Positions 20,849-38,947 of a DNA stretch of 64,000 bases are shown here, one piece after another. The notes beneath the pieces are model-generated. The model searched no databases and was not told the DNA's origin. It saw only the letters and a program-made list of their open reading frames with translations. How positions within the stretch are numbered: the stretch's first letter is position 1; each line of letters begins with the position of its first letter. Made by a program: the position numbers and the translations under genes. Source of the DNA: Pseudomonas sp. PDNC002 (GTDB taxonomy: Bacteria; Pseudomonadota; Gammaproteobacteria; Pseudomonadales; Pseudomonadaceae); the NCBI RefSeq assembly GCF_016919445.1, contig NZ_CP070356.1:3599502-3663501 (forward strand). Direction: 5' to 3'.

Positions 20849-22204
20849 CTAACGAATGCCCTGGTTGCGCAAGGCGGTCGGGGTGTAGTCGACACTGCTG
20901 GCCTTGAAGCCGAACTCCACCTGGGATTTCTCCTGGTTGGTCATGCCCGACACCAGGTAGCGGCCATTGATCAGGTCATAGATTGCTTCAACGCCCAGCC
21001 AGGGAATCTGCTTGTCGTACAGCGGCGTCATGAAGCTTTCGCCTACCCGCCAGAGCGTGCCGCGACCGTCGTAGTGATCGGCGAGGACGGCCTGCCAGGT
21101 GTCCTCGTCGAGGAACAGCACGCGCCGCGCATAGATGTGCCGCTCGCCGGGGCGCAGGGTGCCTTCGACTTCCCAGACGCGGTGCTTCTCGTAGCGCACC
21201 AGGTCCTGGTTGAGATGGCCGGGCTTGACCAGCTCGTCGTAGCGGTGGGTGGTGGAATCGAGGGCGAAGCTGTTGTAGGGCACGTAGATTTCCTTCTTGC
21301 CCACCAGCTTCCAGTCGTAGCGGTCCGGCGCGCCGTTGAACATGTCCAGGTTGTCGGCCACTCGCAGGCCATCGGAGGCCGGGTAGGGGCCGTCGTAGGC
21401 GATCTGGGGAGCGCGGCGGACACGCCGTTGGCCGGCGCTGTAGATCCAGGCCATGCGTGGCTCGCGCACCTGGTCGAGGGTCTCGTGGACCAGCACCACA
21501 TCGCCGGCCAGGCGCGCCGGCGCGGTCACCAGTTGCTTGTAGTAGAAGAGGACGTTGCTGTCCTTGTCGGCGCTGTAGTCGGTCAACTGGTCGCGGTAGC
21601 TGAACTGTTGCTGGAAGTAGGTCGGCGTGTAGCTGCCGGTGGCGGTCGGGGTGGCCTGGACATGCAGGCGCTGGGCGCTGCCGCCGCGATAGCGGGTGAT
21701 GTGGTTCCACAGCGCCTCGACGCCGCTCTGCGGGATAGGGAAGGGGATCGCGGTCTGGAAGTCCTTCAGGCCGTTGCCGCTTTCGACCAGGCTGGCACGC
21801 CGGGCGTTGCCGGCCACCGCCTGCAGCACGCTGGCGGGGTAGGTCGCCGAGCGGTGCGTCGGGTACACGGTGATGTGATAGTCGGCGTAGCGCTTGAGCA
21901 TGGCCTGCTGGCCGGGCGTCAGGTTGGCGGCGTACTGCGCCATGTTCTGCGCGGTGATGGTGAACAGCGGTTTGTCCGCGGCGAAGGGATCGCTCAGGCG
22001 GCCATCCGCGCCGCGGGTGCCGGCGTTGGTCGGCAGGCCGCCGTCCCAGGCGGGAATGCTGCCATCGGCGTTACCGGCCCGCAGTGCGCCGAGCGGCGTC
22101 AGCTCGCCGCCCAGTTTGGCCGCTTCCGATTCGGGAACGGCTGCCTGGAGGCTGAAGGGCAGGGCAAGGAGCAGCAGGGAAGCGCACGCAAGTTTCTTGT
22201 TCAT
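20849..22204 (-). CDS. DUF1329 exported protein (first copy)
   Basis: A 451-residue periplasmic protein with a signal peptide (cleavage after SLQA). Family hallmarks are the PLGALRAGNADGSIPAWDGG start, FPIPQSGVEALWNHI, RRAPQIAYDGPYPASDG and GAPDRYDWKLVGKKEIYVPYN. DUF1329 proteins have a LolA-like fold and nearly always travel with DUF1302 outer-membrane proteins; they are thought to serve uptake or trafficking of hydrophobic substrates, but the reaction is unproven. The DUF1302 gene ends 14 bases upstream. A clear paralogue is at 41135-42502. Confidence 0.9.
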   Translation of the reverse strand: MNKKLACASLLLLALPFSLQAAVPESEAAKLGGELTPLGALRAGNADGSIPAWDGGLPTNAGTRGADGRLSDPFAADKPLFTITAQNMAQYAANLTPGQQAMLKRYADYHITVYPTHRSATYPASVLQAVAGNARRASLVESGNGLKDFQTAIPFPIPQSGVEALWNHITRYRGGSAQRLHVQATPTATGSYTPTYFQQQFSYRDQLTDYSADKDSNVLFYYKQLVTAPARLAGDVVLVHETLDQVREPRMAWIYSAGQRRVRRAPQIAYDGPYPASDGLRVADNLDMFNGAPDRYDWKLVGKKEIYVPYNSFALDSTTHRYDELVKPGHLNQDLVRYEKHRVWEVEGTLRPGERHIYARRVLFLDEDTWQAVLADHYDGRGTLWRVGESFMTPLYDKQIPWLGVEAIYDLINGRYLVSGMTNQEKSQVEFGFKASSVDYTPTALRNQGIR

Positions 22205-22218
22205 CTAATGGTCTCCGC

Positions 22219-24069
22219 TTAGAACGACACGCCAAGGCTCAGGGCCACGAAGTCCCGGTCGGTATTCACGTTGTATTTGCCGCCGAAGAAGTTCGTGTAG
22301 GAAAGGCTCATGTTGTAGGTGTTGAGGTAGGTGCCATCGATGCCGACGCTGATCGCCCGCGCGCCCTGGTTGAAGCCCGGCTCCGGGGCGTAGCCGTGTA
22401 CGTCATGGGACCAGGCCAGGTTGGGGCGGACGGTGGCGCCGTCGATGAGATCGGCGTATTCCCAGATGGCGCGCATCTGGTAGCCCCAGGCGTTGCTGGT
22501 GACGAAGCCGGAATCGTTGCAGTACTGCGGTGTCACGCTGCTGCCGCTGCACAGGTCGTTGTCGGGGTACAGCGCGCCCTGGCCGAACACCGGGCTGCGG
22601 CCGTAGCGCAGCTCATCGTCGCCACCCAGGCCGCCGACGTGGGTCAGGCCGATTTCACCGATCAGGGTCAGGCGGTCGGCGCCCATCACCTGGTCGAAGA
22701 AGTGCGTGGCGGTGACCTGTGCCTGGGTCACTTCCTTGCGCCGATAGCCTTTGAGCAGGGCGTCGTTGGCCGGTGCCGGGGCATCGCCGTAGACCGGTGT
22801 CAGCGCCGGGATGCCCAGGGTGGCGGTAACCAGGTCCACCGGGTTGATCTGCACCGGCATGTTCGGCCGGTAGCTGATCTCGCCGGCCAGGGTGGTACCG
22901 GTGGGCAGGCTGGTGCTGAAACTCAGGCCATAGAGCTGGATGTCTTCGGGGTAGTCGGCGAAGTACTGCGCGCTGCCCAGTCGATAGGCCTGGGTCAGCT
23001 GCTGGCCGGCGCCGCTGCCGATCACCGCACCGCACAGGGCGTTGGGTATGCCGAGGTTGCCGCACAGCTGCGGGGCGAAGCCCAGGTCGGCGGCGTGCGG
23101 CCCGCTGCGTACGCTGAGGTAGGGCTGGCGGCTGTGGTAGTTGATGAAGTAACCGGCGAATTCGCTGTCCAGTTCCGGGGCGAACCAGCGCAGCGCAGTG
23201 CCCCACTGGCCGCTGTCGCGCGCCTCGCGGTCCTTGCCGCGGGGGATGACGATACCTTCGTCGGTCAGGTTGATCCCCGCTGGCGCGAGGGCCTGCACCG
23301 CCAGCGGGTTCTGGTTGATCACCGGGCCGGCGGCCAGGCCGTTGCAGCCGTCGGCCATCACGTCGGTGGTGGAGAAGAAGGTGCCGCAGTTGTCGATCAC
23401 CGTCTTCTGCCATTCCAACTGGTAGAAGGCCTCGGCGGACAGGTGCTCGCTGAAGTTCTGCGAGACGTAGAACATGTTCACCGGGATCAGCCCTTCCTTG
23501 ATCTCCGACCCCGGCCGGCGGAAGGCGGCGACGTCCACCGGGTTGATGGCATTGATGCCGCCCTGGATGAAGGTGCTCTCGCCCCAGCTCACCACCTGCT
23601 TGCCCAGGCGCACGGTGCCGGGCAGCTCGCCGATGCTGTAGTTGTGGTAGAGGAAGGCATCGAGAATCTCCCCGCCGGAGGACTTGGCGCCTTCCTCGCG
23701 GCCGTGGTCGTCGATGTCCTTGAAGTGCAGGTGCTCGTCCTTGAGCTTGAAGTCGTACCAGTATTTCCCCCGGACGAAGGCGCCGCTGTCGCCGTACTTC
23801 AGCTCCAGGTCATGGATGCCCTTGAACACCTTGGAGAAGGTGTCGCCTTCGCGGAAGTTGCGTTTGCCGTCGTCGGAGCTGTGGCTGTGCAGCAGCCGTG
23901 CATCGGCATTGCGCATGGCCCAGCTGGCGCCGACCGACAGGCTGGAATCGAACTGTCCCTCGATTTCGCCGAGGCTGAAGGTGAAGGCCTGGGCGTTGCC
24001 GCCGACGCTGGCGAGGGAGATGGCGGCGGGCAGTGCGAGCAGGCGCAAGGCGGGTGGTTTACGGTTCAT
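22219..24069 (-). CDS. DUF1302 outer-membrane beta-barrel protein (first copy)
   Basis: A 616-residue exported protein. The signal peptide ends near GNAQA and the mature start FTFSLGEIEGQFDSSLSVGASW is the family hallmark. LGKQVVSWGESTFIQGGINAINPVD and FRRPGSEIKEGLIPVNMFY follow, and the C-terminus ends in an aromatic beta strand (FVALSLGVSF). It is likely a porin-like barrel passing hydrophobic compounds with its DUF1329 partner. An AACAACAACAA run overlaps the Shine-Dalgarno region, a candidate Hfq/Crc site. Confidence 0.9.
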   Translation of the reverse strand: MNRKPPALRLLALPAAISLASVGGNAQAFTFSLGEIEGQFDSSLSVGASWAMRNADARLLHSHSSDDGKRNFREGDTFSKVFKGIHDLELKYGDSGAFVRGKYWYDFKLKDEHLHFKDIDDHGREEGAKSSGGEILDAFLYHNYSIGELPGTVRLGKQVVSWGESTFIQGGINAINPVDVAAFRRPGSEIKEGLIPVNMFYVSQNFSEHLSAEAFYQLEWQKTVIDNCGTFFSTTDVMADGCNGLAAGPVINQNPLAVQALAPAGINLTDEGIVIPRGKDREARDSGQWGTALRWFAPELDSEFAGYFINYHSRQPYLSVRSGPHAADLGFAPQLCGNLGIPNALCGAVIGSGAGQQLTQAYRLGSAQYFADYPEDIQLYGLSFSTSLPTGTTLAGEISYRPNMPVQINPVDLVTATLGIPALTPVYGDAPAPANDALLKGYRRKEVTQAQVTATHFFDQVMGADRLTLIGEIGLTHVGGLGGDDELRYGRSPVFGQGALYPDNDLCSGSSVTPQYCNDSGFVTSNAWGYQMRAIWEYADLIDGATVRPNLAWSHDVHGYAPEPGFNQGARAISVGIDGTYLNTYNMSLSYTNFFGGKYNVNTDRDFVALSLGVSF

Positions 24070-24082
24070 CTGACACGACCTC

Positions 24083-24093
24083 TTGTTGTTGTT
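24083..24093 (-). promoter_or_regulatory. Candidate Hfq/Crc motif before DUF1302 (first copy)
   Basis: On the minus strand AACAACAACAA adjoins the GAGG ribosome-binding site of the DUF1302 gene. It fits the AANAANAA catabolite-repression motif bound by Hfq with Crc in Pseudomonas. Confidence 0.5.
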
Positions 24094-24183
24094 CTGTCGT
24101 ATGCCGCGCCTTTTCCGGGCGCAGCCGTTCCCCGCTGGCCCGCGTGGCTCGAGCCAGTTGATGAAGGTGGTTGAGGTGTTGCG

Positions 24184-24339
24184 CTAGAGGCTCAGGTCGA
24201 GGGCGTCCTCCCCGAGCGTGATCTCGCCCGAATACTCATCGGCCATGCCGCTGGCGACGAGGCGCCGGGCGAGGAAAGTCGGGGTGCGAGACCCTTGGGC
24301 AAGCAGCAGGGCAGGGACGCAGGGCAAACGGGAACGCAT
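24184..24339 (-). CDS. Small ORF of 51 residues inside the catabolic operon
   Basis: An intact 51-codon frame lies in the 326-base gap between the ligase and the DUF1302 gene, on the operon strand. It begins MRSRLPCVPALLLAQGSRTP and ends GEITLGEDALDLSL. An AAGGAAG Shine-Dalgarno lies six bases before the ATG, and an AACAACAA motif like those of its neighbours is just upstream, both signs of real translation. I do not recognise the product; the basic/hydrophobic N-terminus and acidic C-terminus do not look like a standard signal peptide. It could be a small functional protein or the remnant of a larger gene. Confidence 0.45.
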   Translation of the reverse strand: MRSRLPCVPALLLAQGSRTPTFLARRLVASGMADEYSGEITLGEDALDLSL

Positions 24340-24357
24340 GGCACTTCCTTCGGATTC

Positions 24358-24365
24358 TTGTTGTT
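24358..24365 (-). promoter_or_regulatory. Candidate Hfq/Crc motif before the 51-residue ORF
   Basis: The minus-strand sequence AACAACAA lies about ten bases upstream of the AAGGAAG ribosome-binding site of the small ORF. Confidence 0.4.
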
Positions 24366-24395
24366 CGGTGCGAGCGGTTCTGGGCGTTGCGAAGA

Positions 24396-26297
24396 TCAGC
24401 TATGCCAGTCCACCACGAAGCTGTAGCGACCCAGTGCCCGGGCCAGCGTCTCTCTGCCGGCGCCGGCGCGAACCTGCGCCACCAATCCACGGCGGGCGTC
24501 CTGCACCACCTCCACGGCGATCCCGGCGAGCCCCTGGTTGTCCGCTTCCTGCTGGATGACTCGGGCGATTTCCCGCTGTTGCAGCGCGGGCTTGAAGATC
24601 TTGCCCACCGGTGTCACCGGCAGCGCATCGAGGATCTCGATGCGCTTGGGCACCGCGGCGCGCTCGCTGATCCGCTGGTTGGCAAAATCCAGCAGCTCGG
24701 TGCTGTCTGCACGCTGGCCGGCGGCCAGTTGTACGTAGGCCACGGGAATCTCGCCGGCATGCGGATCGGGGCAGCCGACTGCCGCGACCAAAGCCACCGC
24801 CGGATGCGCCTGCAAGGCCTCCTCGATCTGCTTGGGATCGATGTTGTGACCGCCGCGGATGATCAGCTCCTTCTTGCGCCCGGTGAGCCAGAAGTAACCC
24901 TGGGCGTCCTGTCGGCCGAGGTCGCCGGTGTTCAGCCAGCGTCGGCCGCCGATGTCGATCCACAGGCCCTTGTTGTGGCTGTCGTCGAGATAACCGAGAA
25001 ACACGTTCGGGCCGTGGATGGCGATCACCCCGACCTCGTCGGTATCGGCGTCGCGCAGGTACGCGCCCTGGTCGTCGAGGATCACCGCGCGCATGTCCTG
25101 GTAAGCCAGGCGCAGGCCGATGGAGCCGATGGGGCGCTCGCCCTCGGGCGGGTTGCTCGACGATACGCAGGCGCCTTCGGTGAGCCCGTAGCCCTCCAGG
25201 ATGCGCACACCGACCTTGCGCTCGAACTCGCGGAACAGCTCCACCGGCATCGGCGCCGCGCCGCACAGCGCGTATTGCAGGCTGGACAGGTCGTGGCCGG
25301 TCGTGGGTTGTTGCAGCAGGGCCGAATAGACCGTCGGCACGCCGGAGAAGAAGTGGATGCCGAAGTGCTGCACCATGGCCCAGAAATTCGCGATCACCCC
25401 ATCGCCACGATAGCCCTGGGGCGTGCCGATGATCACCCGGTCGCCGTGGGTCCAGGGCATCAGCCCGGTGACCAGTTGACCGTTGACGTGGAACAGCGGC
25501 AGGCCGCAGAAGATCACCTGGCCGGGTTGGCGCGGCTGCATGTTGGCGGCCATCGCCCAGGCGTTGAATACTTCCGAGCCGTGGCTGCGCCGGGCGATCT
25601 TCGGCAAGCCGGTGGTGCCGCCGGTGCAGAAGTAAGACGAAGGCTCGTCGGCGCGAATCTGCCGGCCGCTGTTCAGGCGATCACCACTTTCACGGCGCAT
25701 CAGCTGGCGCAGGTCGTGGATACGCAGGTGCTTGTGCCGGCTGCGTTCGCGGCGGGCCATCCAGCGCAGCGCGAGCCCCGGCAGGTTGCCCACGTAGGGC
25801 GCCATGCTCACCCACAGCACATCGCGCACGCTCGGCAGGCCGTCGAGCTGGCTGGCGAGTTTTGGCCACAGGTCGCTGCCCGGTGTTGGCGCCAGGGTCA
25901 CCACCAGGCGAGCGTTGGCGGCGCGCAGCAGGTCGGCGATCTGCGGGGCCTCCAGCAGCGGGTTGATCGCCAGCACCACGCCTGCCGCTTCGCCGCCCCA
26001 GATGACGAAATGGGTTTCCGGCAGGTTCGGCAGCAGGAAGGCGACCACGTCCTTCGGACCGATGCCCAGGCGGTGGAAGGCGTTGGCAGCGCGGGTGATG
26101 TCGGCGAACAGCTGGGCGTAGGTCCAGTCGTGGGTGCGACGGAAGTGCTTCGCCTCGAGAAAGAAGCTCAGCGCCGTCGACGTGGCGTATTCGCCGGCGC
26201 AACGGCGCAGCGCCTCGTAGGTGCTGGCGGGCAGCTCGCGGCGCGCCAGCGGCACGCTCTCCAGCGCCTCGATGTCGGCGAGATTCTTCACGGGCAT
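24396..26297 (-). CDS. AMP-dependent acyl-CoA ligase/synthetase
   Basis: A 633-residue adenylate-forming enzyme that probably makes a CoA thioester of a carboxylic acid intermediate. Core motifs in order: the P-loop-like CTGGTTGLPKIARRSHG, LEGYGLTEGA (A5), LNTGDLGRQDAQGYFWLTGRKKELI (split A7/A8), and the catalytic lysine in TPVGKIFKP. An extra C-terminal tail of about 70 residues (GIAVEVVQDARRGLVAQVRAG) follows the usual end. Its ATG shares one base with the FAH stop (TGATG). It is fourth in the minus-strand operon after TetR, dioxygenase and hydrolase. Substrate unknown; a ring-cleavage or side-chain acid is likely. Confidence 0.9.
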   Translation of the reverse strand: MPVKNLADIEALESVPLARRELPASTYEALRRCAGEYATSTALSFFLEAKHFRRTHDWTYAQLFADITRAANAFHRLGIGPKDVVAFLLPNLPETHFVIWGGEAAGVVLAINPLLEAPQIADLLRAANARLVVTLAPTPGSDLWPKLASQLDGLPSVRDVLWVSMAPYVGNLPGLALRWMARRERSRHKHLRIHDLRQLMRRESGDRLNSGRQIRADEPSSYFCTGGTTGLPKIARRSHGSEVFNAWAMAANMQPRQPGQVIFCGLPLFHVNGQLVTGLMPWTHGDRVIIGTPQGYRGDGVIANFWAMVQHFGIHFFSGVPTVYSALLQQPTTGHDLSSLQYALCGAAPMPVELFREFERKVGVRILEGYGLTEGACVSSSNPPEGERPIGSIGLRLAYQDMRAVILDDQGAYLRDADTDEVGVIAIHGPNVFLGYLDDSHNKGLWIDIGGRRWLNTGDLGRQDAQGYFWLTGRKKELIIRGGHNIDPKQIEEALQAHPAVALVAAVGCPDPHAGEIPVAYVQLAAGQRADSTELLDFANQRISERAAVPKRIEILDALPVTPVGKIFKPALQQREIARVIQQEADNQGLAGIAVEVVQDARRGLVAQVRAGAGRETLARALGRYSFVVDWHS

Positions 26298-27397
26298 CAG
26301 GCTTGCTCCACCACGCGGTTGCGCTGCACGCCAAGGTCGATCACGCCATCGGCGCTGCGGATGCTCGCTTCCACCACATCGCCCGCCTTCAGGTACTGGC
26401 TGCGGCCTTCCTGGGCTTTCATGAAGGCCTGCCACTTGACCCGCTCCGGCAGCAGCGCGGCGATGCGCTGCTTGGCCGGAGAGGGGATCGACAGCGCGCA
26501 ACCAGCCGGCGTGCCGGTGGCGATCAGGTCGCCGGCGACGAAGTCCTGCACGCCGGAGAGTTCGCTCAGGGTTGCCGCCGGGCCGTGCACCAGGTTGGCG
26601 GTGCTGTCGCTCTGACGCACCTCGCCGTTCACCGTCAGGCGCAGGCGCAGGTCCTTCAGGTAGTGCATGTCCGCCCGGCCCAGCAGGCACAGGTACGGCC
26701 CCACCGGGCCGAAGGTGCGGAAGCTCTTGCCCTTGTAGAACTGCATCTGTGGAATCTGGATGTCGCGCGCCGAGTAGTCGTTGACGATCACCACGCCGGC
26801 GATGAACTCGTGCAGGTTGGCGTCGGTCACCGCGACCTTGCCGGTGATCTCGCGGCGCAGCACCAGGCCCAGTTCGATCTCGTAGTCGAGGAAGCGCACG
26901 TTGCGTGGTTTGATCAGGTCGCTGTCGGCGGCAACGATGCAGCTCTGCGCCTTGGTGAAGATCATGTTGAAGTGCTTGGCGTCCGGGTCCATGCCCGACT
27001 CGATCATGTGCTGCCGGTAGTTGGCGCCCTGGCAGACGAACTGCTGGTCGCGGGTGATCGGCGAGAGCAGTGTCACCTCGTCCAAGGCCAGTTCGCCGCC
27101 CTGCCACTGGGCGAGTTCCTCGACGCTGGTCTGGCGGATCAGCTCGCCGGTGCTGGCGAAGCGACCCGGAATACGGCTGATGCGCCCCTGGCGGAGCACA
27201 CCCCAGTGGTGGTCGTTCTGGTGTTCGAAGCGGACTACATGAATGGGGCTGTGGACGGGCATGGAAGCGACTCCTGGTGCAGCGGTTGGCCGCGTCGGCG
27301 CGGCGATTGTCGTTGTCGGTTGCGTATGGCTGGTGCGAGCCAGCAGCACTCCGCCCGCAAGCAGGGCGGCACGGCTGAGCAGGCTGCGGCGGCGCAC
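26297..27397 (-). CDS. Fumarylacetoacetate-hydrolase-family enzyme
   Basis: The core matches the FAH/HpaG-type fold that hydrolyses, hydrates or decarboxylates ring-cleavage products: RDQQFVCQGANYRQHMIESG, the metal-binding YEIELGLVLRR, VVIVNDYSARDIQ, GKSFRTFGPVGPYL and ATGTPAGCAL. Two starts are possible. The ATG at 27262 has AGGAG eight bases upstream and gives 321 residues. The GTG at 27397, ten bases after the dioxygenase stop, gives 366 residues and adds RRRSLLSRAALLAGGVLLA, which looks like a twin-arginine export signal. I give the longer form because it fills the otherwise odd gap, but this choice is uncertain. It acts naturally after the dioxygenase encoded just upstream. Confidence 0.85.
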   Translation of the reverse strand: MRRRSLLSRAALLAGGVLLARTSHTQPTTTIAAPTRPTAAPGVASMPVHSPIHVVRFEHQNDHHWGVLRQGRISRIPGRFASTGELIRQTSVEELAQWQGGELALDEVTLLSPITRDQQFVCQGANYRQHMIESGMDPDAKHFNMIFTKAQSCIVAADSDLIKPRNVRFLDYEIELGLVLRREITGKVAVTDANLHEFIAGVVIVNDYSARDIQIPQMQFYKGKSFRTFGPVGPYLCLLGRADMHYLKDLRLRLTVNGEVRQSDSTANLVHGPAATLSELSGVQDFVAGDLIATGTPAGCALSIPSPAKQRIAALLPERVKWQAFMKAQEGRSQYLKAGDVVEASIRSADGVIDLGVQRNRVVEQA

Positions 27398-27407
27398 GCG
27401 GAGGGCC

Positions 27408-28499
27408 CTAGCCGAACATCCGCGCCAGCGTGACCAGCTTGCGCAGCGTCAGGTCAGGGCTGTGGCGCAGGTTGTGCAGCAGGGCGCGCAAGCTGCGCAG
27501 GTTCATCGGCGGCTTGGTGAAGCTCTTGGGCATGCGCTGGCCCCACTGCGCCATGGCTTCGGGGCTGACCGCGTGCAGGCCGGTGGGACGTTCGGCGGTG
27601 AACAGGTCGCCGTCGCAGTAGTGCTCGTGCTTGTCGCCCCAAGGGTCCTGCCAGTAATCGAAGATCTGGCTGCCGAGAATGTGCCGGCCCATGCCCCAGG
27701 CATGCTTCCAGCCGCGCTCGCGCAGCACCCGTTGGCCCATGCCCACCGCATCGGCGTCCACCACCTCGTAGGCGCTGTGGCTGTAGGCGGCCATGAAGCC
27801 CTGGGCCAGTGCCAGGGTGTGGTGGTCGGCGGGCGTGGCGCCCAGGTCCAGGCGCAGGAAGGCCACCGCGGGGGAGCCGTCGGGCAGTACCTGGACGTCG
27901 CTGGGGATGAAGCCGAAGTGCTCGGTGTACCAGGCGCAGGTGGCCTGGTAGTCGGCGACTTCGAGGACCACGTGGCCGAGCTTGACGATCTCCGGCGGCG
28001 CCACCGGTGGGCGTTGGGTGGCGTTGATCCGCGGGCTCTGGTCGACCTGGTTGAGCGGCAACGCCGAGCGGTGCTCCAGCGCCTTGGTCGGCTGCTGGCC
28101 GAACACCGCTTCGACGACGAAGCCGGACGGGTCGCGCAGGCACACACGCTCACCACCGCCCGGTGTACCCAGCGACTCGATGGCCGAAGCGCCGGGCAGC
28201 CGGGCGACGCGTTGCAGGTCGGCACGAGAAGCAAGGGTGAGACCGAAACCAACGAAGCGCGCCTGCTCGGCCCGCTGTACCCGGTAGCAGTAGGGCGCCG
28301 TGCCGGTGCCGCGGAAGTACAGGCAGTCCGGTTCGCGTTGCGCCAGCAGCAAGCCGAAGTCGTCCAGGAAGCGCTGGGCTGTCTCCAGGTCGGGGCGTTC
28401 GAAGATCAGGTAGGCCAGCGCGCATGCCTTGACCGTCGGCTGCGGATGCCGTGCCGGCTGGGCAGTAGCCAGGGTGGCGGGGGAGTGCTGACGGCTCAT
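27408..28499 (-). CDS. Extradiol-type ring-cleavage dioxygenase (VOC superfamily)
   Basis: A 363-residue two-domain vicinal-oxygen-chelate protein of the catechol 2,3-dioxygenase/BphC type. The probable iron ligands sit in the C-terminal module: His in VKLGHVVLEVAD, His in AAYSHSAYEVVD, and Glu in WGDKHEHYCDGD. The N-terminal module (KACALAYLIFERPDLETAQ) is degenerate, as usual. It should meta-cleave a catechol-like intermediate made by the flavin monooxygenases. It is the first structural gene after the regulator on the minus strand, and AACAACAA overlaps its translation start region. Confidence 0.88.
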   Translation of the reverse strand: MSRQHSPATLATAQPARHPQPTVKACALAYLIFERPDLETAQRFLDDFGLLLAQREPDCLYFRGTGTAPYCYRVQRAEQARFVGFGLTLASRADLQRVARLPGASAIESLGTPGGGERVCLRDPSGFVVEAVFGQQPTKALEHRSALPLNQVDQSPRINATQRPPVAPPEIVKLGHVVLEVADYQATCAWYTEHFGFIPSDVQVLPDGSPAVAFLRLDLGATPADHHTLALAQGFMAAYSHSAYEVVDADAVGMGQRVLRERGWKHAWGMGRHILGSQIFDYWQDPWGDKHEHYCDGDLFTAERPTGLHAVSPEAMAQWGQRMPKSFTKPPMNLRSLRALLHNLRHSPDLTLRKLVTLARMFG

Positions 28500-28501
28500 G
28501 T

Positions 28502-28509
28502 TTGTTGTT
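28502..28509 (-). promoter_or_regulatory. Candidate Hfq/Crc motif before the dioxygenase
   Basis: The minus-strand sequence AACAACAA lies between the GGAG ribosome-binding site and the dioxygenase ATG, where Hfq/Crc binding would block initiation directly. Confidence 0.5.
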
Positions 28510-28579: not shown

Positions 28580-29194
28580 TCAGTCCAGCGTGGGCAGGGG
28601 CGGCAGCTCTCCGCTGGCCAGCCTCCGGGCTTCCTCGGCTTCGACGCCGAGTGCGCGCAGCGTCAGTTCGGCGGCGTCGCTACCGGCATCGCGCCAGGTC
28701 CGGTGGCCTTCGAGCACCAGGAACATCGAGCCGAGCACGGTACCGGCGATCATCGAGATGGCCGAGGGCAACTGCTCACCGCGGATGCTGTAGCGACCAC
28801 TGGCGACACCGCTGACCAGGTCGGCCATCGGCGGGCCGAACCACATGCCGCGCAGCGAGTCGTCGCTCATCGCGAAGCGATTGATGAAGGCGCCCCAATG
28901 AGGCTCCTCGAACGCCCGGCGGATGAAGAAGCGCATGCCGTTGGCCAGGCGCAGGGCGGGGTCGGCGTTGTCACCGAAACTCTTCACCACGCGCTCGTGC
29001 ATTTCCGAGGCGAGCTGCCCGGCGACGCGGTGGAACAGGTCGTCGATGGACTGCAGGTTGTTGTAGATGGTGCCCCGCGCCACGCCGGCCTCCTGGGCCA
29101 GGTCACTGATGTTCACCTGGTTGGCGCCTTTCTCGGCGAACAGGCGCAGGGCGGCCTGGTGGATGCGGCGTTGGACGGGGTTGAGGGTTTCCAT
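28580..29194 (-). CDS. TetR-family regulator of the catabolic island
   Basis: A 204-residue repressor-type protein. The N-terminal helix-turn-helix is VNISDLAQEAGVARGTIYNN; the C-terminal ligand domain is diverse. The ATG at 29194 has GGAG nine bases upstream; the longer frame to 29257 would run over the operator. It is divergent from the monooxygenase operon at 29456 and likely controls both directions through the two TTGAAC..GTTCAA palindromes. An aromatic substrate or pathway intermediate is the probable inducer. Confidence 0.9.
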   Translation of the reverse strand: METLNPVQRRIHQAALRLFAEKGANQVNISDLAQEAGVARGTIYNNLQSIDDLFHRVAGQLASEMHERVVKSFGDNADPALRLANGMRFFIRRAFEEPHWGAFINRFAMSDDSLRGMWFGPPMADLVSGVASGRYSIRGEQLPSAISMIAGTVLGSMFLVLEGHRTWRDAGSDAAELTLRALGVEAEEARRLASGELPPLPTLD

Positions 29195-29226
29195 GAACAG
29201 CGACTCCAGAATCAAGCTGAGATCGA

Positions 29227-29244
29227 TTGAACACGCGCGTTCAA
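29227..29244. promoter_or_regulatory. TetR operator palindrome 1
   Basis: TTGAACACGCGCGTTCAA is an 18-base inverted repeat (TTGAAC/GTTCAA arms, near-symmetric centre), 33 bases upstream of the TetR start. It shares its arms and spacing with the second palindrome at 29403-29422. Confidence 0.8.
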
Positions 29245-29402: not shown

Positions 29403-29422
29403 TTTGAACACGAGTGTTCAAA
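29403..29422. promoter_or_regulatory. TetR operator palindrome 2
   Basis: TTTGAACACGAGTGTTCAAA has perfect nine-base arms around a two-base centre. It lies 34 bases upstream of the first monooxygenase start, mirroring palindrome 1 on the regulator side. Confidence 0.82.
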
Positions 29423-31081: not shown

Positions 31082-32724
31082 TCGATATCCCCGTACTGAT
31101 CAGCGGCGCCGGCCCGGTCGGCCTGACCCTGGCATTGACGCTCAGCCGCCTGGGTGTGCGCTCGGTGTTGCTGAACGACCGCAAGGAGACCACCCGCCAT
31201 CCCAAGCTGGACGTGGTGAACTGCCGCTCGATGGAAATCTTCCGCCAGCTGGGTCTTGCCGAGCGTATCCGCGCGGCAGGCAATCCGCTGACAGCCAACC
31301 AGTATTCGGCCATGGCGGCCTCGGCCAGCGGGCCTTTCTATGCGCTCATGGCTGACCGCCACCTGATCTACCAGCCGGTGCAGCAGGCCGCGGAAATCAT
31401 CCGCGCCTGCCGCGATGGCAGCCTGCCGCTGGAGTCGATGCAGCGCATTGCGCAAATGCACCTCGAACCGGTGCTGATGGCCGAAGTCGAGGCCGATCCC
31501 AACATCGAATTGCGCATGGGCTGGCGGCTCTACGGTTTCGAGCAGGGCTCCACCGGCGTGGTGGCGATGGCCCATGACGTGGACAGTGGCGAGGCACAGC
31601 AGTTCTTCGCCCAGTACCTGATCGGCTGCGATGGCCCCAACAGCCGCGTGCGCAACTTCCTCAACATCGACTACGACGGCACCCGCGACCTGGTCGGCGA
31701 ACTGTTCATCATCCACCTGCGTTCGGATGAGATCGCCGGCCTGTTCCCCAACCACCAGCCGTACTGGCACACCTGGCTGACCCGTCCGGGCTTCGCCGGG
31801 CTGCTGGTTTCGCCCGATGCCAGCCGCAACGACTACGTCCTGCACCGGCCCTTCGCACCGCGTCCGGGCGAATCGCTGGAGAGCGTGATCGACGCCGCGC
31901 TGGGGGTGAAGCTCAACTACGAGATCGTCCAGTCCGGACCGTGGCGCCCGCAATTCCTGGTGGCTCGCTCGTTCGGCCGGCAGCGGGTGTTCATTGCCGG
32001 CGACGCCACGCACCAGTTCATGCCCACCGGTGGCCTGGGCATGAACACCGGCGTGGCCGAGGCGCACAACCTGGCCTGGAAGCTGGCCGCCTGCCTGGCC
32101 GGCTGGGGCGGTCCGAAGTTGCTGGAAAGCTATGAAGCCGAACGCCTGCCCATCGCCCGGCGCAACCGTGACCACGTGAAGAAGTGCGCCGCGGCCACCT
32201 TCGAGTCGCAGATGCAGAGCAGTGACACGCTGCTTGCCGATGGGCCGGCGGGCGAAGCGGCACGGCGGGCCATGGGTGATGAGTTCGAGCGCAAGGTGTC
32301 GCGGCTGTACGAGTCCCTCGGCATCGAGATCGGCTATCGCTACCACGGCTCGCCGGTGATCGAGGCGGACCACGCCAGCGAGCCGGCCTACGAAGAGATT
32401 CGCTACACGCCGACCACCTGGTCCGGCGCACGTCTGCCCAGCGCCTTCCGTGACGATGGCACGGCGGTGTTCGACCAGTTGCCGCTGGATCGCTTCACCC
32501 TGCTTGCCCTCAACGCTGACGCCGCTGAGTACGAGCCCTTGCTGGCGGCCGCCGAAGAGTGCCGGGTACCGCTGGCGGTGTTGCCGCTGCACGAGCGCCA
32601 CCTGGTCGACCTGTACGAGCGCCGCTTCGTGCTGGTCCGTCCGGACCAGCACGTCTGCTGGCGTGGCGACAGCCTGCCGGTGGATTGCCATTCGTTGTTC
32701 AACCGCCTGCGTGGAGCCCGCTGA
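31078..32724 (+). CDS. FAD-dependent monooxygenase, second copy type
   Basis: A 548-residue class A flavin monooxygenase coupled to the preceding one (ATGA overlap). The FAD motif is GAGPVG (10-15), the DG motif YLIGCDGPNSRVRNFL, and the GD motif RVFIAGDATHQFMPTGGLGMNTG. The TGGLGMNTG form and the long C-terminal domain resemble the PgaE/TetX-like and 2,4-dichlorophenol or resorcinol hydroxylase group more than MhpA. Two different hydroxylases in one operon suggest two successive hydroxylations, or paired substrates. Confidence 0.92.
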   Translation: MIDIPVLISGAGPVGLTLALTLSRLGVRSVLLNDRKETTRHPKLDVVNCRSMEIFRQLGLAERIRAAGNPLTANQYSAMAASASGPFYALMADRHLIYQPVQQAAEIIRACRDGSLPLESMQRIAQMHLEPVLMAEVEADPNIELRMGWRLYGFEQGSTGVVAMAHDVDSGEAQQFFAQYLIGCDGPNSRVRNFLNIDYDGTRDLVGELFIIHLRSDEIAGLFPNHQPYWHTWLTRPGFAGLLVSPDASRNDYVLHRPFAPRPGESLESVIDAALGVKLNYEIVQSGPWRPQFLVARSFGRQRVFIAGDATHQFMPTGGLGMNTGVAEAHNLAWKLAACLAGWGGPKLLESYEAERLPIARRNRDHVKKCAAATFESQMQSSDTLLADGPAGEAARRAMGDEFERKVSRLYESLGIEIGYRYHGSPVIEADHASEPAYEEIRYTPTTWSGARLPSAFRDDGTAVFDQLPLDRFTLLALNADAAEYEPLLAAAEECRVPLAVLPLHERHLVDLYERRFVLVRPDQHVCWRGDSLPVDCHSLFNRLRGAR

Positions 32725-32725
32725 C

Positions 32726-33106
32726 ATGAGCGCCTTCTTCGACTCCCTGAAACTGCGCCTGCTGTTGCTGGCCTCCGTCCCGCTGCTGCGCCGCGCCGAA
32801 CGCCGCTCCGCGCGCTTCAAGGAACTGTTGCACGAGGAATCCTTTGTGTTGCAGGTGCGCACCGCCGACGGCGTTGGCGGTTACTACCAACTGCGCGGCG
32901 GCGTGCTCAGCCTGCATCGCGGCGTGCACCGCCGGCCCGATTTCACCCAGCAGTGGCAGCGCAGCGCCGATGCCCTGCGGGTCATGCTCAGCCGCGATGA
33001 AACCGACATGCTGCGCGCCGTCGAGGCGGGCGAGTGTCGGCTACAGGGCCGCTTCGCGGTCGCCCTGTGGTTCAACGAAGCCATGAAGATCGCGCGGGCC
33101 GCCTAG
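32726..33106 (+). CDS. Small SCP2-like protein
   Basis: A 126-residue protein starting MSAFFDSLKLRLLLLASVPL, two bases after the monooxygenase stop, with GGAG upstream. After a hydrophobic or amphipathic N-terminal helix comes a segment with the sterol-carrier-protein-2 pattern: VRTADGVGGYYQLRGGVLSLHRG, then DFTQQWQRSADALRVML, then ECRLQGRFAVALWFNEAMK. SCP2-like folds bind hydrophobic ligands. The assignment is by pattern only. It may hold a poorly soluble intermediate near the membrane for the hydroxylases. Confidence 0.7.
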   Translation: MSAFFDSLKLRLLLLASVPLLRRAERRSARFKELLHEESFVLQVRTADGVGGYYQLRGGVLSLHRGVHRRPDFTQQWQRSADALRVMLSRDETDMLRAVEAGECRLQGRFAVALWFNEAMKIARAA

Positions 33107-33132
33107 GCCCGCTTCCGGATCACGACAAGGAC

Positions 33133-33140
33133 AACAACAA
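33133..33140 (+). promoter_or_regulatory. Candidate Hfq/Crc motif at the first amidohydrolase start
   Basis: AACAACAA ends on the A of the amidohydrolase ATG, within the GGACAACAACAATG leader, so Hfq/Crc binding would cover the start codon. Confidence 0.5.
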
Positions 33141-34213
33141 TGACGATCCAACAAGGTCGAATCGACGTACACCACCACATCATTCCGCCGGCCTTCGTCG
33201 AGACCATGGCGAAGAAGGGACTCGACATGGTCGCCGGTGCTCCGCTGCCGAAATGGACGCCGCAGAAATCCATCGAGGTGATGGACCTCAACGGCATCCA
33301 GACCGCCATCACCTCGCTGTCGGCGCCCGGCGTGCACTTCGGTGGCGGGGTCGAGCAGGCGCGCGAGCTGGCCATGCGCTGCAATGATTTCGCCGCGCAG
33401 ATGCGCAGTGATCATCCCGGCCGCTTCGGCAACTTCGCCGTGTTGCCCACGCCGTTCACCGAGGCTGCCTGCCGCGAAGCGATTCGCGCGCTGGACGAAC
33501 TCAAGGCCGAAGGCATCGTCCTGCTGGGCAGCACCGACGGTGTGTTCCTCGGCGATGCGCGGTTCGACGAACTGATGGCAGAACTGGATCGCCGGGCGGC
33601 CATCGTCTTCGTCCACCCGAACATGCACGAGACCAGCGAGCAACTGGGCATGGTCGCGCCGGGTTTCCTCATCGAGTTCCTCTGCGACACCACCCGCGCG
33701 GCGGTCAACCTGATCCTCACCGGCACGCTGGAGAAGTACCCGCGCATCCGCTGGATCCTCGCCCACGGCGGCGGCTTCCTGCCCTACGTGGCCTGGCGCG
33801 TGTCGCTGGCCAATGCCTTGCCGCAGTTCCAGGACAAGGCGCCACAAGGCGTGATGACTTACCTCAAGCGCTTCTACTACGACACCGCGCTGTCGCCCTC
33901 GCGTTACTCCATGGCGGCGCTGAAGGAGCTGGTGGCGCCCTCGCAGATTCTCTTCGGCAGCGACTTCCCCTTCGCCCCGGCGCCGGTTACCACCCTGACG
34001 TGCCAGACCCTGGAGGAGAACCCGTTGTGGTCGGACGAGCAGCGCTACGGCATCAATCGCGGCCATGCGCTGAGCCTGTTCCCGCAGTACCGCGAGGCGC
34101 AGGAGCAGGTGGCCGCGGCGCCGATCTTCAGTGGCGAATCCTTCGGCAGCCGGGTGAAACGCAGCCTGACCCGGCCGCTGGGTGCCTATGTCGAACGCGT
34201 GCGCAGCCGCTGA
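33140..34213 (+). CDS. ACMSD-like amidohydrolase/decarboxylase (cytoplasmic copy)
   Basis: A 357-residue metal-dependent amidohydrolase of the ACMSD family (6-methylsalicylate, gamma-resorcylate or aminocarboxymuconate semialdehyde decarboxylases and C-C hydrolases). Metal ligands: the HHH of RIDVHHHIIPP (11-13), VFVHPN, ILAHGGGFLPY and the Asp of LFGSDFPF. There is no signal peptide. It would remove a carboxyl group or cleave a ring-fission product. A close tandem paralogue follows after 15 bases. Confidence 0.9.
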   Translation: MTIQQGRIDVHHHIIPPAFVETMAKKGLDMVAGAPLPKWTPQKSIEVMDLNGIQTAITSLSAPGVHFGGGVEQARELAMRCNDFAAQMRSDHPGRFGNFAVLPTPFTEAACREAIRALDELKAEGIVLLGSTDGVFLGDARFDELMAELDRRAAIVFVHPNMHETSEQLGMVAPGFLIEFLCDTTRAAVNLILTGTLEKYPRIRWILAHGGGFLPYVAWRVSLANALPQFQDKAPQGVMTYLKRFYYDTALSPSRYSMAALKELVAPSQILFGSDFPFAPAPVTTLTCQTLEENPLWSDEQRYGINRGHALSLFPQYREAQEQVAAAPIFSGESFGSRVKRSLTRPLGAYVERVRSR

Positions 34214-34228
34214 TCCGGGGAGAAAAAC

Positions 34229-35422
34229 ATGAAACGCCGAGAATTCGTGATTGGCGCCGGCGTGCTCGCCAGCGCCTCGCTGCTGGCCGGTGAGCTGCCA
34301 GCCCTGCCGCCGGCAGGTGATCCGTCCGACGCCGCCGCTCCTGGGTCGCAGGAGTCGCCGCCGAGGCCCGGTCGCATCGACGTGCATCACCACATCCTGC
34401 CGCCGTTCTACGCCGAGGCGTTGCGCCGCCAAGGGCTGGACCGGGCGGCGGGCGTGCCCCTGCCGGAGTGGTCGGCGCAACGCTCACTGGAACTGCTCGA
34501 TGCGCAAGGCCTGCAGACCGCGATCACGTCCGTATCCTCCCCGGGCGTCTGGTTCGGCAATGAACGCGCTGCCGCCGAACTGGCCCGTCGCTGCAACGAG
34601 TTCGCGGCGGAGCTGGGGCAGCGGCATGCCGGGCGCTTCGGCAGCTTCGCCTGTGTGCCGCTGCCGGCCACCGGTGCCGCTTGCGCAGAGGCGATCCACG
34701 CACTGGATGTGCTCAAGGCGGATGGCGTCGTGCTGCTGGCCAGCAATGACGGCGTGTTCCTCGGCGATCCGCGTTTCGACGAATTGATGGCCGAGCTGGA
34801 CCGACGCGGGGCGACGGTTTTCCTCCACCCGAACCTGCATCCGAGCAGCCAGGCGCTGGGCCTGACGGCACCGGGCTTTCTGCTGGAGTTCGTCTGCGAC
34901 ACCACGCGGGCGGCGGTGAACCTGATCCTCAGCGGCACGCTGGAACGCTATCCGCGCATCCGCTGGATCCTCGCCCACGCTGGCGGCTTCCTGCCGTACG
35001 CGGCGTGGCGGGTGTCGTTGGCCAACGCGCTGCCGCAATTCCAGGAGCAGGCGCCGATGGGGGTGATGAACTACCTGCAGCGCTTCTACTTCGATACCGC
35101 GCTGGCACCGGCGGCGCCATCGATGGCCGTGCTGCGGGAGTTGGTTGGCCCTTCCCAGGTGCTGTTCGGCAGTGACTTCCCATTCGCGCCGCAACCGCTG
35201 GTGGTCGAGCAGATGGACACGCTCGCTGGCGGCGACGTGTGGAGCGCGCCGGAGCTGGTGGGCATTGGCCGGGGACATGCCCTGAGCCTGTTCCCGCGCT
35301 TCGCCCAGGCGGGCGAGACGGTGGCTGCCGCGCCGTCGAATGAACCCGAATCAACCTTGCACTGGATGGGACGCAGCGCCGGCAAGCCACTCGCCGCCCT
35401 GGCCCAGCATCTGAAGGACTGA
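34229..35422 (+). CDS. ACMSD-like amidohydrolase with Tat signal
   Basis: A 397-residue paralogue of the preceding gene, sharing most of its core (FLLEFVCDTTRAAVNLIL, YPRIRWILAHAGGFLPY, VLFGSDFPFAP). The metal triad HHH is kept in RIDVHHHILPP. It differs by an N-terminal MKRREFVIGAGVLASASLL, a twin-arginine signal followed by a Pro/Ala-rich linker, so the enzyme should be exported folded to the periplasm. Shine-Dalgarno GGGGAG. The pair probably arose by local duplication and then split between compartments. Confidence 0.9.
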   Translation: MKRREFVIGAGVLASASLLAGELPALPPAGDPSDAAAPGSQESPPRPGRIDVHHHILPPFYAEALRRQGLDRAAGVPLPEWSAQRSLELLDAQGLQTAITSVSSPGVWFGNERAAAELARRCNEFAAELGQRHAGRFGSFACVPLPATGAACAEAIHALDVLKADGVVLLASNDGVFLGDPRFDELMAELDRRGATVFLHPNLHPSSQALGLTAPGFLLEFVCDTTRAAVNLILSGTLERYPRIRWILAHAGGFLPYAAWRVSLANALPQFQEQAPMGVMNYLQRFYFDTALAPAAPSMAVLRELVGPSQVLFGSDFPFAPQPLVVEQMDTLAGGDVWSAPELVGIGRGHALSLFPRFAQAGETVAAAPSNEPESTLHWMGRSAGKPLAALAQHLKD

Positions 35423-35426
35423 CGCC

Positions 35427-36656
<1,230 letters not shown>

Positions 36657-36660
36657 GGGT

Positions 36661-37302
36661 TCAGCCGTCCTGCGGCAAGGGCAGGGCGGTAATCTTCCTG
36701 GCTTTGGCCGGAGTCGCGCCCAGTGCGCGCAGGACCATTTCCGTGAGCAGGACGTCCTGCCCGGCCGGCGCGCGGCCCTCCAGGGTCGCGCGAATCGCGC
36801 CGGTGGCGCAGGCGACCACCAGGTCCAGGGCGAGGCCTTCGTCCGCGTAGTTCAGGACACCTTCGGCCAGCCCGTCGCGCAGGTCGTTGCGCACATGGTC
36901 GGCCAGGCGGGAGTGCACCGCCTGGTCAAAATGGATCACCCGCAGCAGGGCGCTGGCCCACTGCGGGTCGGTCTGTGCGCGCAGCACGAACATGCGCACG
37001 CCGATGGCCAGCCGCGTCGCACCGCTGCGAACCCCTTCGCTGAGCACCGAGATGGCCTCTGAAAACTCGCTGGCCAAGGCGATGCCGACGGCTTCGGCCA
37101 GCTCGTCACGGGTGCGGAAGTAGTTGTAGATGGTGCCGGTGGAAACGTCCGCTTCCGCTGCGAGGTCCTGCAATGCCGTCGCCGCCACGTCCTGCCGGGC
37201 GAACACGCGCAGGGCGGCATCCAGCAGACCCTGGCGGGTGCGCGCGCGTTTCTTGTGGCCGCGGGTCAGCGGGGCGGCGGTGTCGTCGAGGGGGTCGGTC
37301 AT
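36661..37302 (-). CDS. TetR-family regulator
   Basis: A 213-residue regulator with the helix-turn-helix TALQDLAAEADVSTGTIYNYF after a basic N-terminus (RGHKKRARTRQGLLDAAL). It lies 64 bases downstream of the third monooxygenase on the same strand, so the two are probably co-transcribed or the regulator controls that gene. The likely operator is the TGACGAA/TTCGTCA repeat upstream of the monooxygenase. It is convergent with the OYE gene. Confidence 0.9.
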   Translation of the reverse strand: MTDPLDDTAAPLTRGHKKRARTRQGLLDAALRVFARQDVAATALQDLAAEADVSTGTIYNYFRTRDELAEAVGIALASEFSEAISVLSEGVRSGATRLAIGVRMFVLRAQTDPQWASALLRVIHFDQAVHSRLADHVRNDLRDGLAEGVLNYADEGLALDLVVACATGAIRATLEGRAPAGQDVLLTEMVLRALGATPAKARKITALPLPQDG

Positions 37303-37366
37303 GGCGCGTATCTGGCTGCGGGGCTGCCGCGATGATACGGGAAGCCTTGGGCCGACCGGTACCTGC

Positions 37367-38947
37367 TCATGCCTGCAGCAGCGCCTGGCAGCGGCTCAGG
37401 AGTTCGCCGGCCTGTTCGGGAGCGCCCTGGTGCATGATGACGCGGTCGGGGCGGACCACTGCCAGCGTGGGTTGTGGCCAGGCGTCCAGCAGCGTGCCGT
37501 CCAGCGCCTCGGCGAAGCTTCCATTGCCGTTGCCACGGCCGTGACCGATCTCCAGGAAGTCGCCGCCCAGTTCCTGCCAGCGGGCCTGCTGCGCCGCATC
37601 GAGCCAACGGCGGGGGTCGGTGCCCAGGCCGACCAGTTGCAGACGGTCGCCCAGCAGGTCGTCGCTCAGGCACAGGCGGCCCGCGCTGCGCACCCAGGCC
37701 TGGGGAAAGAGGGCGCCAGTGGCCGCGGAGCGCCGGCGCCGACCTCGGACGAACAACCCCTGGTCGAAGCGGCTCTTCGGTTTGATGTCCAGTTCCTCGA
37801 AGTGCCGGCGCGCCGGCGGGAAGCTGCGCAGCACTTTCATGAATCCGTGGATCGCCGCCGCTGCCAGCGCGTTGCCGGGCATGACCAGGCGCCCCATCAG
37901 CTTGGCCAGGTCGATCATCGCCTGGGCGTGGGGGCGTCGCTCCTCGTCATAGCTGTCGAGAATCCGTGGCGAGGCGTTGCCGCGCAGCACCCAGGACAGC
38001 TTCCACGCCAGGTTGGCCACATCCCGCAGGCCCGCCACCAGGCCTTGCCCGACGAAGGGCGGCGTGATGTGCGCGGCATCGCCAACCAGGAATACGCGGC
38101 CCTGCTGGAAACTGTCGCAGCAGCGGGCATGGAAGCGGTAGACGGCCTTGCGTTCGATGGTCAGTTTGTCGGGGTCGATCCACGGGGCCAGCAGTTCGCC
38201 GATGCGCGCCGGGTCTTCCATCTGGTCCCGCGATTCCCCCGGCCTGAGCATGAACTCCCAGCGCTCGCGGCCGCCCGGCGCGGGCATGTGCGGCGTGGGG
38301 CGGCGGTGATCGCAGAGAAACTCGACGTGATCGATGGCCTGGCCATGGCGGGCGCCGGCGTCGACGATCAGCCAGTCCTCGGAGTAGCTCTGGCCGTTGA
38401 ACTCCTGGCCGATCAGACCGCGAACCCGCGAGCTGGCGCCGTCCGCGCCGACCAGGTAGCGGCAGCGCACGACATGCGTGCATCCCGATTCGTCCTGCAG
38501 CGTGGCCGTCACGCCGGCGGCGTCCTGCACGAATTCGCGCAGCTCCAGTCCGCCCAGGCTGCGCAGGTTCGCGAAGCGCCCCGCCTGGCGGCGCATGGCC
38601 TGTTCCAGATCGGGTTGATAGAAGGTCACGAGCTTGTGGTGGCCGTCGATGCGCCCGCGGGTATTGGCCTGGCCGAACTGGCCGACGATGGGGCAGTGCA
38701 TCTTCACATGGGGGATCACCACGGTGTCGAAGGCGTCCTCATCGAGGCCGGCCAGCTGGAGTATGCGCAGGGCCTCGTTGTCCAGGGCGATGGCGCGCGG
38801 CATGGACAGCACGTCGTGGTTCTTGTCGATGACCAGCGTGTCGACGCCGTAGCGGCCGAGCAACGCGGTGAGCGTCGCGCCCACCGGACCGTTGCCGATC
38901 ACCAGGACATCGACCGATTCGGGGGGCAGATCGTTGTTGTTATGCAT
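37367..38947 (-). CDS. FAD-dependent aromatic hydroxylase, third of the island
   Basis: A 526-residue class A flavin monooxygenase. The FAD motif is GNGPVG (18-23) in DVLVIGNGPVGATL; the DG motif is YLVGADGASSRVRGLIG and the GD motif RVFLVGDAAHITPPFVGQGL. It is of the MhpA/PheA type, like the first one. The ATG at 38947 begins MHNNNDLPPES; AACAACAA falls at codons 3-5, a candidate Hfq/Crc site. It is transcribed separately from the plus-strand operon, together with the downstream TetR. Confidence 0.92.
   Translation of the reverse strand: MHNNNDLPPESVDVLVIGNGPVGATLTALLGRYGVDTLVIDKNHDVLSMPRAIALDNEALRILQLAGLDEDAFDTVVIPHVKMHCPIVGQFGQANTRGRIDGHHKLVTFYQPDLEQAMRRQAGRFANLRSLGGLELREFVQDAAGVTATLQDESGCTHVVRCRYLVGADGASSRVRGLIGQEFNGQSYSEDWLIVDAGARHGQAIDHVEFLCDHRRPTPHMPAPGGRERWEFMLRPGESRDQMEDPARIGELLAPWIDPDKLTIERKAVYRFHARCCDSFQQGRVFLVGDAAHITPPFVGQGLVAGLRDVANLAWKLSWVLRGNASPRILDSYDEERRPHAQAMIDLAKLMGRLVMPGNALAAAAIHGFMKVLRSFPPARRHFEELDIKPKSRFDQGLFVRGRRRRSAATGALFPQAWVRSAGRLCLSDDLLGDRLQLVGLGTDPRRWLDAAQQARWQELGGDFLEIGHGRGNGNGSFAEALDGTLLDAWPQPTLAVVRPDRVIMHQGAPEQAGELLSRCQALLQA
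38935..38942 (-). promoter_or_regulatory. Candidate Hfq/Crc motif in the third monooxygenase
   Basis: The minus-strand sequence AACAACAA begins five bases into the coding region, next to the start codon. Confidence 0.45.

Follow-up and report, generated by a model that had tools for sequence, protein, structure and literature searches.

What compound might be broken down by the genes at positions 20849-38950 of the DNA analysed here? The window, a stretch of 64,000 nucleotides from Pseudomonas sp. PDNC002 (G000:C1:3599502-3663501 in a single-contig genome of 6,393,486 bases), carries at this locus an extradiol-type dioxygenase (EDO), an FAH-family hydrolase (FAH), an AMP-forming acyl-CoA ligase (ACS), three class A flavin monooxygenases (FMO1 to FMO3), two amidohydrolases (AH1 and AH2), an OYE-family ene-reductase (OYE), a small SCP2-like protein, a DUF1302/DUF1329 outer-membrane pair and two TetR regulators. 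An initial annotation, made from the letters alone, had listed these enzyme and outer-membrane families and called the locus a catabolic island. Domain and model scans of the open reading frames (ORFs) in the window recovered all the named families; "island" in the sense of acquired DNA found no support, and the GC content is uniform over the whole window. The genes form a conserved, apparently co-regulated catabolic cluster. Its general type, aerobic meta-cleavage, is familiar, the combination is new, and we found no description of it in the open-access literature. We put the odds at roughly one in two that the cluster encodes a modular pathway for the aerobic catabolism of a phenolic lipid, whose ring would most likely be of the resorcinol or resorcylate type and bear a long alkyl (or prenyl) tail.

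The genes are laid out in three units, called in our scripts from codon-position GC rather than by a trained gene finder. DUF1329, DUF1302, a gene remnant, ACS, FAH, EDO and TetR1 lie on the minus strand; FMO1, FMO2, SCP2, AH1, AH2 and OYE are divergent from the TetR1 unit on the plus strand; and TetR2 then FMO3 occupy the right end on the minus strand. In the pairs FMO1/FMO2 and FAH/ACS the genes share a few bases, resembling translationally coupled operons. EDO lies next to FAH and 9 kb from FMO3. Of 37 genomes searched for EDO (our own and 36 relatives), 21 had matches at E<=1e-3, the close ones bearing Pseudomonas names, and 15 stretches from 14 of these 21 genomes were compared. Eight contain the entire order from FMO3 to DUF1329 (only two of them with AH2), two have EDO-FAH-ACS and TetR1 plus TetR2-FMO3 (one, L031, also matches OYE and AH1), one has EDO-FAH-ACS with TetR1 only, and four have distant EDO/FAH relatives only. 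The DUF1302/DUF1329 pair is of a more distant type in L021 and L029 (36-49%). Two further full clusters, G037 and G146, were found through FMO2. The gene order is kept in ten relatives, with AH2 in three, an MBL-fold hydrolase gene in nine and DUF1329 outside the compared stretch in one (G037). Two genus relatives that lack this cluster (L032 and L033) have a different EDO-FAH pair, with 44% identity for EDO and other companion genes in its operon.

Co-occurrence extends across the family. Among 198 Pseudomonadaceae genomes, EDO (E<=1e-140) is present in 25, FMO3 (E<=1e-160) in 24 and both in 23, always on the same contig and 1.4-15.7 kb apart; the searches of this set, three in all, were specified identically and share genome labels, and we assume that they drew the same genomes. 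EDO occurs without FMO3 in G023 and G166, and FMO3 without the core EDO only in G162, which keeps FAH, ACS and TetR1. We also compared the 80 named EDO loci that ranked highest by similarity among at least 563, a choice that over-represents Pseudomonas. FAH accompanies EDO in all 80, ACS in 72 and FMO3 (>=40% identity) in 56, some flanks stopping short of FMO3. Cupriavidus sp. KK10 has EDO-FAH-ACS-FMO3 at 46-54% by our own sequence comparison.

Around this core, other parts vary. The outer-membrane partner belongs to the FadL family in 28 of the 80 loci, to OmpW in 22 (some at 32-35% identity) and to DUF1302 in 13, and one locus has two of these families. FadL, OmpW and DUF1302/DUF1329 are tied to hydrophobic compounds. 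The stretch from TetR1 to TetR2-FMO3 is exchangeable between genomes. It holds OYE alone in L142, L146 and L147; MoL-MoS, a molybdoenzyme and its partner described below, in L137-L140, three of which also have OYE and three (L137, L139 and L140) a second EDO-FAH pair; and FMO1-FMO2-SCP2-AH1-(AH2)-OYE in the genus of the window and in L130. AH1-AH2-OYE adjoins the core in a different arrangement in L143 and L145.

Alignment of 11 clusters revealed two conserved palindromes in the TetR1/FMO1 intergenic region. The motif TTGAAC-N6-GTTCAA has two copies in the window, both in this region, compared with 0.03 expected when one mismatch is allowed, and the whole genome contains three exact copies and none of the reversed control pattern. 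The third copy, at G000:C1:1533016-1533033 (L148), lies in a 3-kb stretch where no catabolic gene was recognised by eye. With at most one mismatch, the palindrome is found in 40 of the 41 EDO loci with TetR1 (>=45% identity) versus 5 of the 39 without, and the control pattern in 1 of 80; a wider set of 104 loci, in which some genomes are counted twice, gives 62 of 64 with TetR1 and 5 of 40 without. Depending on the genome, it stands before TetR1 and before FMO1, AH1, OYE or FMO3/EDO. This distribution is the strongest sign that these genes serve one process.

The small protein of the window, which stands alone and has 126 residues, adopts the SCP2 lipid-carrier fold; the Pfam SCP2 model matched one of 16 aligned members (E 0.013) and not the window protein. 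In sister clusters, a homologue of this protein is fused to MoL, a transhydroxylase-family molybdoenzyme. MoL residues 138-983 match 4v4c (AhtL) at E 6.6e-273, and Pfam AhtL-like_1st is also matched; the extra N-terminal domain is SCP2-like, a 4Fe-4S partner gene (MoS) accompanies MoL, and aerobic ring-cleavage genes are near. Resorcinol hydroxylase belongs to the transhydroxylase family. MoL with its partner is encoded in L094 (14971-18832) and L137-L140, among others, and MoL is present in 21 of the 80 loci, 19 of these without FMO3 in view within 10-kb flanks that cut FMO3 off. For the 17 Burkholderia-type MoL loci, 16 whole genomes (not that of L110) were searched: 12 lack FMO3 at E<=1e-90 and four have it, and the FMO3-bearing controls L107, L076 and L087 returned it as expected. 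All four MoL genomes among the 198 Pseudomonadaceae have FMO3 in the same cluster. The idea that MoL plainly replaces FMO3 was rejected, as these Pseudomonas genomes keep FMO3 and the flanks truncate the view. A second small protein of our strain (G000:C1:925240-925578, L135; a 160-residue frame) is weakly like the SCP2-like domain of MoL (E 9.6e-7).

The candidate metal ligands of EDO (H176, H226/227 and E292) are invariant in 10 sequences. The strict type I signature, a PROSITE-style pattern that we take to be the consensus, is missed by one inserted residue, and a relaxed pattern fits at residue 271. Both AH1 and AH2 retain metal-site motifs, and their best solved match is 2f6k ("metal-dependent hydrolase"), followed by resorcylate, carboxyvanillate and ACMS decarboxylases. 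Class A flavin monooxygenases hydroxylate phenols, and FAH enzymes cleave keto acids.

From these sequence data we infer the substrate class, each chemical step and the repression, as follows. The DUF1302/DUF1329 pair would carry the compound over the outer membrane, and SCP2 would bind its tail and offer the head to FMO1 and FMO2. AH1 and AH2 may strip a ring carboxylate where present, and FMO3 would finish the ring into a form cleavable by EDO, which is predicted to open it beside the tail to give a polyketo acid. FAH would then break a C-C bond to yield a small keto acid together with a fatty or 3-oxo-fatty acid; the latter could be converted by ACS to its CoA thioester for beta-oxidation. 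OYE may reduce an enone en route. In the absence of an inducer, TetR1 would act at TTGAAC-N6-GTTCAA to repress the two divergent operons. Three indirect lines point to the substrate class, at about even odds: the outer-membrane partners, SCP2 and the sister molybdoenzyme. Alkylresorcinols or resorcylates would be the first candidates. Cereals and some bacteria commonly contain alkylresorcinols and related phenolic lipids. No type III polyketide synthase was found in the genome of our strain. A bolder version is possible, although we would sooner bet against it than for it: a new pathway mineralising phenolic lipids (for example, alkylresorcinols) as a catabolic mirror of ubiquinone synthesis, in which SCP2 holds the tail, class A monooxygenases or the SCP2-fused molybdoenzyme modify the ring, and a fixed EDO-FAH-ACS core then sets the tail free as a fatty acid and activates it.

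Other proposals of the initial annotation can be judged in this light. A single pathway, first suggested from adjacency and shared control signals, is favoured by the order kept in ten relatives, by the joint presence of EDO and FMO3, and by a palindrome that tracks TetR1 and precedes whichever module is present. A hydrophobic aromatic substrate agrees with an outer-membrane partner that alternates among three families, whose link to hydrophobic compounds is in part general background. The gene set is indeed not that of phenylpropionate, homogentisate or biphenyl breakdown, and we found in the open-access literature neither a homologous cluster already assigned to a substrate nor a gene set for bacterial breakdown of alkylresorcinols or phenolic lipids, of which a paywalled description may exist.

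Several observations weigh against a phenolic-lipid pathway. FMO1-FMO2 is present in only 2 of the 80 EDO loci, none of FadL, OmpW and DUF1302 was detected in 18, and FMO3 of our strain is preceded by a different conserved box instead of the TetR1 palindrome. FMO2 has relatives 60-77% identical (the best 120 of 7363) in hosts that include Paraburkholderia, Myxococcus, Leptospira and Rhizobium. Among solved structures, the neighbours of ACS include feruloyl- and coumaroyl-CoA ligases as well as fatty-acyl ligases, and they do not single out a fatty product; for ACS and FMO3, such comparison favours no one substrate. No MoL orthologue was found in the genome of our strain, and in the Pseudomonas genomes examined MoL is added beside FMO3, so its bearing on the substrate is indirect. 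The Tat-like N-termini of FAH and AH2 do not sit easily with an EDO and ACS that would be cytoplasmic. That of FAH is shared with many fluorescens-type loci (a crude scan flagged 42 of the 104 loci, at least one of them, L027, apparently falsely), and the same scan saw none in Burkholderia or Alcanivorax loci or in several close relatives. The P. putida pair PP_0765/PP_0766 is required for Tween20 metabolism, according to the available part of that study (PMC10866462). Against this, in the accessible portion of a Betaproteobacteria regulon study, DUF1302/DUF1329 are possibly for toxic-aromatic and solvent stress and PF07044 is called an exporter (PMC6449761); on that account, the pair need not be importers.

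Much of the same evidence could be read as a short-chain plant phenolic pathway for a coumarin, phenylpropanoid or flavonoid ring, akin to the HcdABC system described below, with ACS activating an aromatic or short side-chain acid. The enzyme trio equals that of HcdABC, which acts on 3-(2,4-dihydroxyphenyl)propionate; FMO1 (457 bits) and FMO3 (428 bits) exceed the cut-off (390) of the MhpA-type model PRK06183.1-3; OYE could saturate a side-chain double bond; and ACS is as near to feruloyl- and coumaroyl-CoA ligases as to fatty-acid ligases. We nevertheless consider this unlikely, as it leaves unexplained the SCP2 lipid-carrier fold and the FadL, DUF1302 and OmpW partners, and the cluster genes include neither an ifc-type cupin nor an MhpB/MhpC-type enzyme.

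The rarity of FMO1-FMO2, missing from 78 of the 80 loci, the separate regulator and box of FMO3 and the wide distribution of FMO2 relatives would also suit two linked pathways, FMO3-EDO-FAH-ACS for one aromatic and a hydroxylation/decarboxylation unit FMO1-FMO2-SCP2-AH1-AH2 for another, with TetR1 merely shared. This we regard as distinctly unlikely: FMO2 (E<=1e-90) is present in 11 of 298 family genomes, every one inside this cluster, and the operator precedes module and core genes alike, including FMO3/EDO in L042, L143, L145 and L108. At E<=1e-120, FMO2 was found only in our own genome among 369 class-level genomes. Six plasmid relatives of FMO2 (E<=1e-80) are 37-41% identical; in one of the two whose context was read, Sphingopyxis granuli pRW412a, FMO-VOC-FAH are consecutive. 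A pathway that breaks down or recycles prenylated quinones or phenols (of the type of ubiquinone, tocopherol or plastoquinone) instead of alkyl phenols would be improbable, given that decarboxylase-like AH1/AH2 and the transhydroxylase-family MoL better suit carboxylated, polyhydroxylated rings and that the window cluster showed no PhyH gene. A PhyH-family oxygenase gene lies beside FMO3 or EDO in L130, L146, L147, L105, L061, L043 and L044.

If phenolic lipids are indeed the substrate, the cluster would identify genes for their breakdown, an inducer-sensing regulator and its operator (a ready biosensor), a lipid-carrier protein serving ring-hydroxylating enzymes in catabolism, and DUF1302/DUF1329 as one of three interchangeable outer-membrane partners for such compounds.

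Features of the cluster in the window, with the basis of each assignment.
Feature	Position	Strand	Basis
DUF1329 partner protein of the outer-membrane pair	20849..22204	-	PF07044, E 2.5e-152
DUF1302 outer-membrane barrel, proposed hydrophobic-substrate uptake	22219..24069	-	PF06980, E 4.6e-172
MBL-fold lipoprotein hydrolase remnant, 51 codons	24184..24339	-	Comparison with relatives' copies, sequence reading
ACS, AMP-forming acyl-CoA ligase	24396..26297	-	PRK07529
FAH-family hydrolase, Tat-like N-terminus in this strain	26297..27397	-	PF01557, E 2.3e-46
EDO, VOC (type I) extradiol-type ring-cleavage dioxygenase	27408..28499	-	PF00903
TetR1 regulator (TetR_C_40); ORF reaches 29257	28580..29194	-	Start set by conservation
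Operator-like palindrome TTGAAC-N6-GTTCAA, copy 1	29227..29244		Motif conservation and counts
Operator-like palindrome TTGAAC-N6-GTTCAA, copy 2, before FMO1	29404..29421		Motif conservation and counts
FMO1, class A flavin monooxygenase; ORF from 29414	29456..31081	+	PRK06183.1-3
FMO2, class A flavin monooxygenase with Rng_hyd_C	31078..32724	+	PRK06126; nearest solved RebC, 2,4-dichlorophenol 6-monooxygenase
SCP2-fold small protein, proposed lipid-tail carrier	32726..33106	+	Fold comparison
AH1, ACMSD/resorcylate-decarboxylase-like amidohydrolase	33140..34213	+	Domain and solved-structure matches
AH2, tandem AH1 paralogue, Tat-like N-terminus	34229..35422	+	63% identity to AH1
OYE-family ene-reductase	35427..36656	+	Family model
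TetR2 regulator (TetR_C_40)	36661..37302	-	Domain scan
FMO3, class A flavin monooxygenase, core hydroxylase; ORF reaches 39100	37367..38950	-	Family model and co-occurrence
Box TCAATATTGG, conserved upstream of FMO3; may belong to a TetR2 operator	39022..39031		Alignment

The remnant between DUF1302 and ACS derives from a gene of about 338 codons that has lost its interior in frame, so that only the first and last codons, 51 in all, are left. In the genus, each of the nine other full clusters retains an MBL lipoprotein hydrolase gene of nearly full length at this place, 70-100% identical to the L022 copy (sequence matches, part of them checked as open frames); G146, of another genus, lacks the gene. 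Among named models GntH comes closest, scoring 144 bits against a cut-off of 333. As the other cluster genes are open, the enzyme may be dispensable for the rest, or the range of the strain may be altered. The region 41135-46397, to the right of the cluster, holds a second DUF1329/DUF1302 pair (52% and 32% identical to the first) beside a gene of the fatty-acid hydroxylase family (45156-46397); with a neighbouring TetR gene (40403-41158), these genes may form another unit for handling lipids.

How does the cluster compare with known systems? The mhp pathway for 3-(3-hydroxyphenyl)propionate uses the class III dioxygenase MhpB and the alpha/beta hydrolase MhpC. FMO1 and FMO3 share its MhpA-type hydroxylase family, but membership was ruled out, as EDO is a PF00903 VOC dioxygenase and the hydrolase a PF01557 FAH protein; no MhpDEF-type gene was seen in the cluster. 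A steroid-type pathway was likewise excluded (HsaC model, 35.9 bits versus a cut-off of 450). In the part of the fde/ifc account available, flavonoid and isoflavone breakdown also pairs an FAD monooxygenase with a glyoxalase-fold (VOC) ring-cleavage dioxygenase, whereas ifc has cupins (IfcD1/D2) and an alpha/beta hydrolase gene where our cluster has FAH and a CoA ligase (PMC11069340); within that limit, membership was ruled out, no cupin being among the scanned cluster genes. MoL of the sister clusters, with its 4Fe-4S partner, resembles pyrogallol-phloroglucinol transhydroxylase and differs from it in the N-terminal SCP2-like domain and the aerobic ring-cleavage neighbours.

The ubiquinone (Ubi) hydroxylases are class A flavoproteins. 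In the Ubi metabolon, as in our cluster, an SCP2-fold protein stands beside enzymes that modify an aromatic ring, and the SCP2 domain of UbiJ is proposed, in the accessible part of the source, to bind the hydrophobic tail of ubiquinone intermediates (PMC9499169). As far as that source goes, the Ubi system differs in being biosynthetic, whereas here a stand-alone SCP2 protein is encoded in what looks like a ring-cleavage operon; the cluster showed no UbiK-like gene. The nearest likeness is to HcdABC of Pseudomonas mandelii 7HK4 (MH346032-34), which acts in 7-hydroxycoumarin breakdown by hydroxylation, extradiol cleavage and FAA hydrolysis of a resorcinol-type propionate, the products being, in the authors' proposal, a small keto acid and succinate (PMC6222606, available portion). 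Both systems place a class A flavin hydroxylase, a type I extradiol dioxygenase and an FAA-family hydrolase in series, and in Hcd a trihydroxylated ring is opened beside its side chain. Such a trio is encoded contiguously in Burkholderia multivorans, where a TetR gene adjoins FMO3-VOC(EDO)-FAH-ligase(ACS)-OmpW. The likeness is drawn at the level of enzyme family. By the same partial account, the Hcd operon has three genes and serves a short propionate chain, and our cluster adds a CoA ligase, two more flavin monooxygenases, SCP2, decarboxylase-like amidohydrolases, OYE and an outer-membrane pair. A long tail in place of the propionate of Hcd would yield a fatty acid, which would explain both the ligase and the outer-membrane partners.

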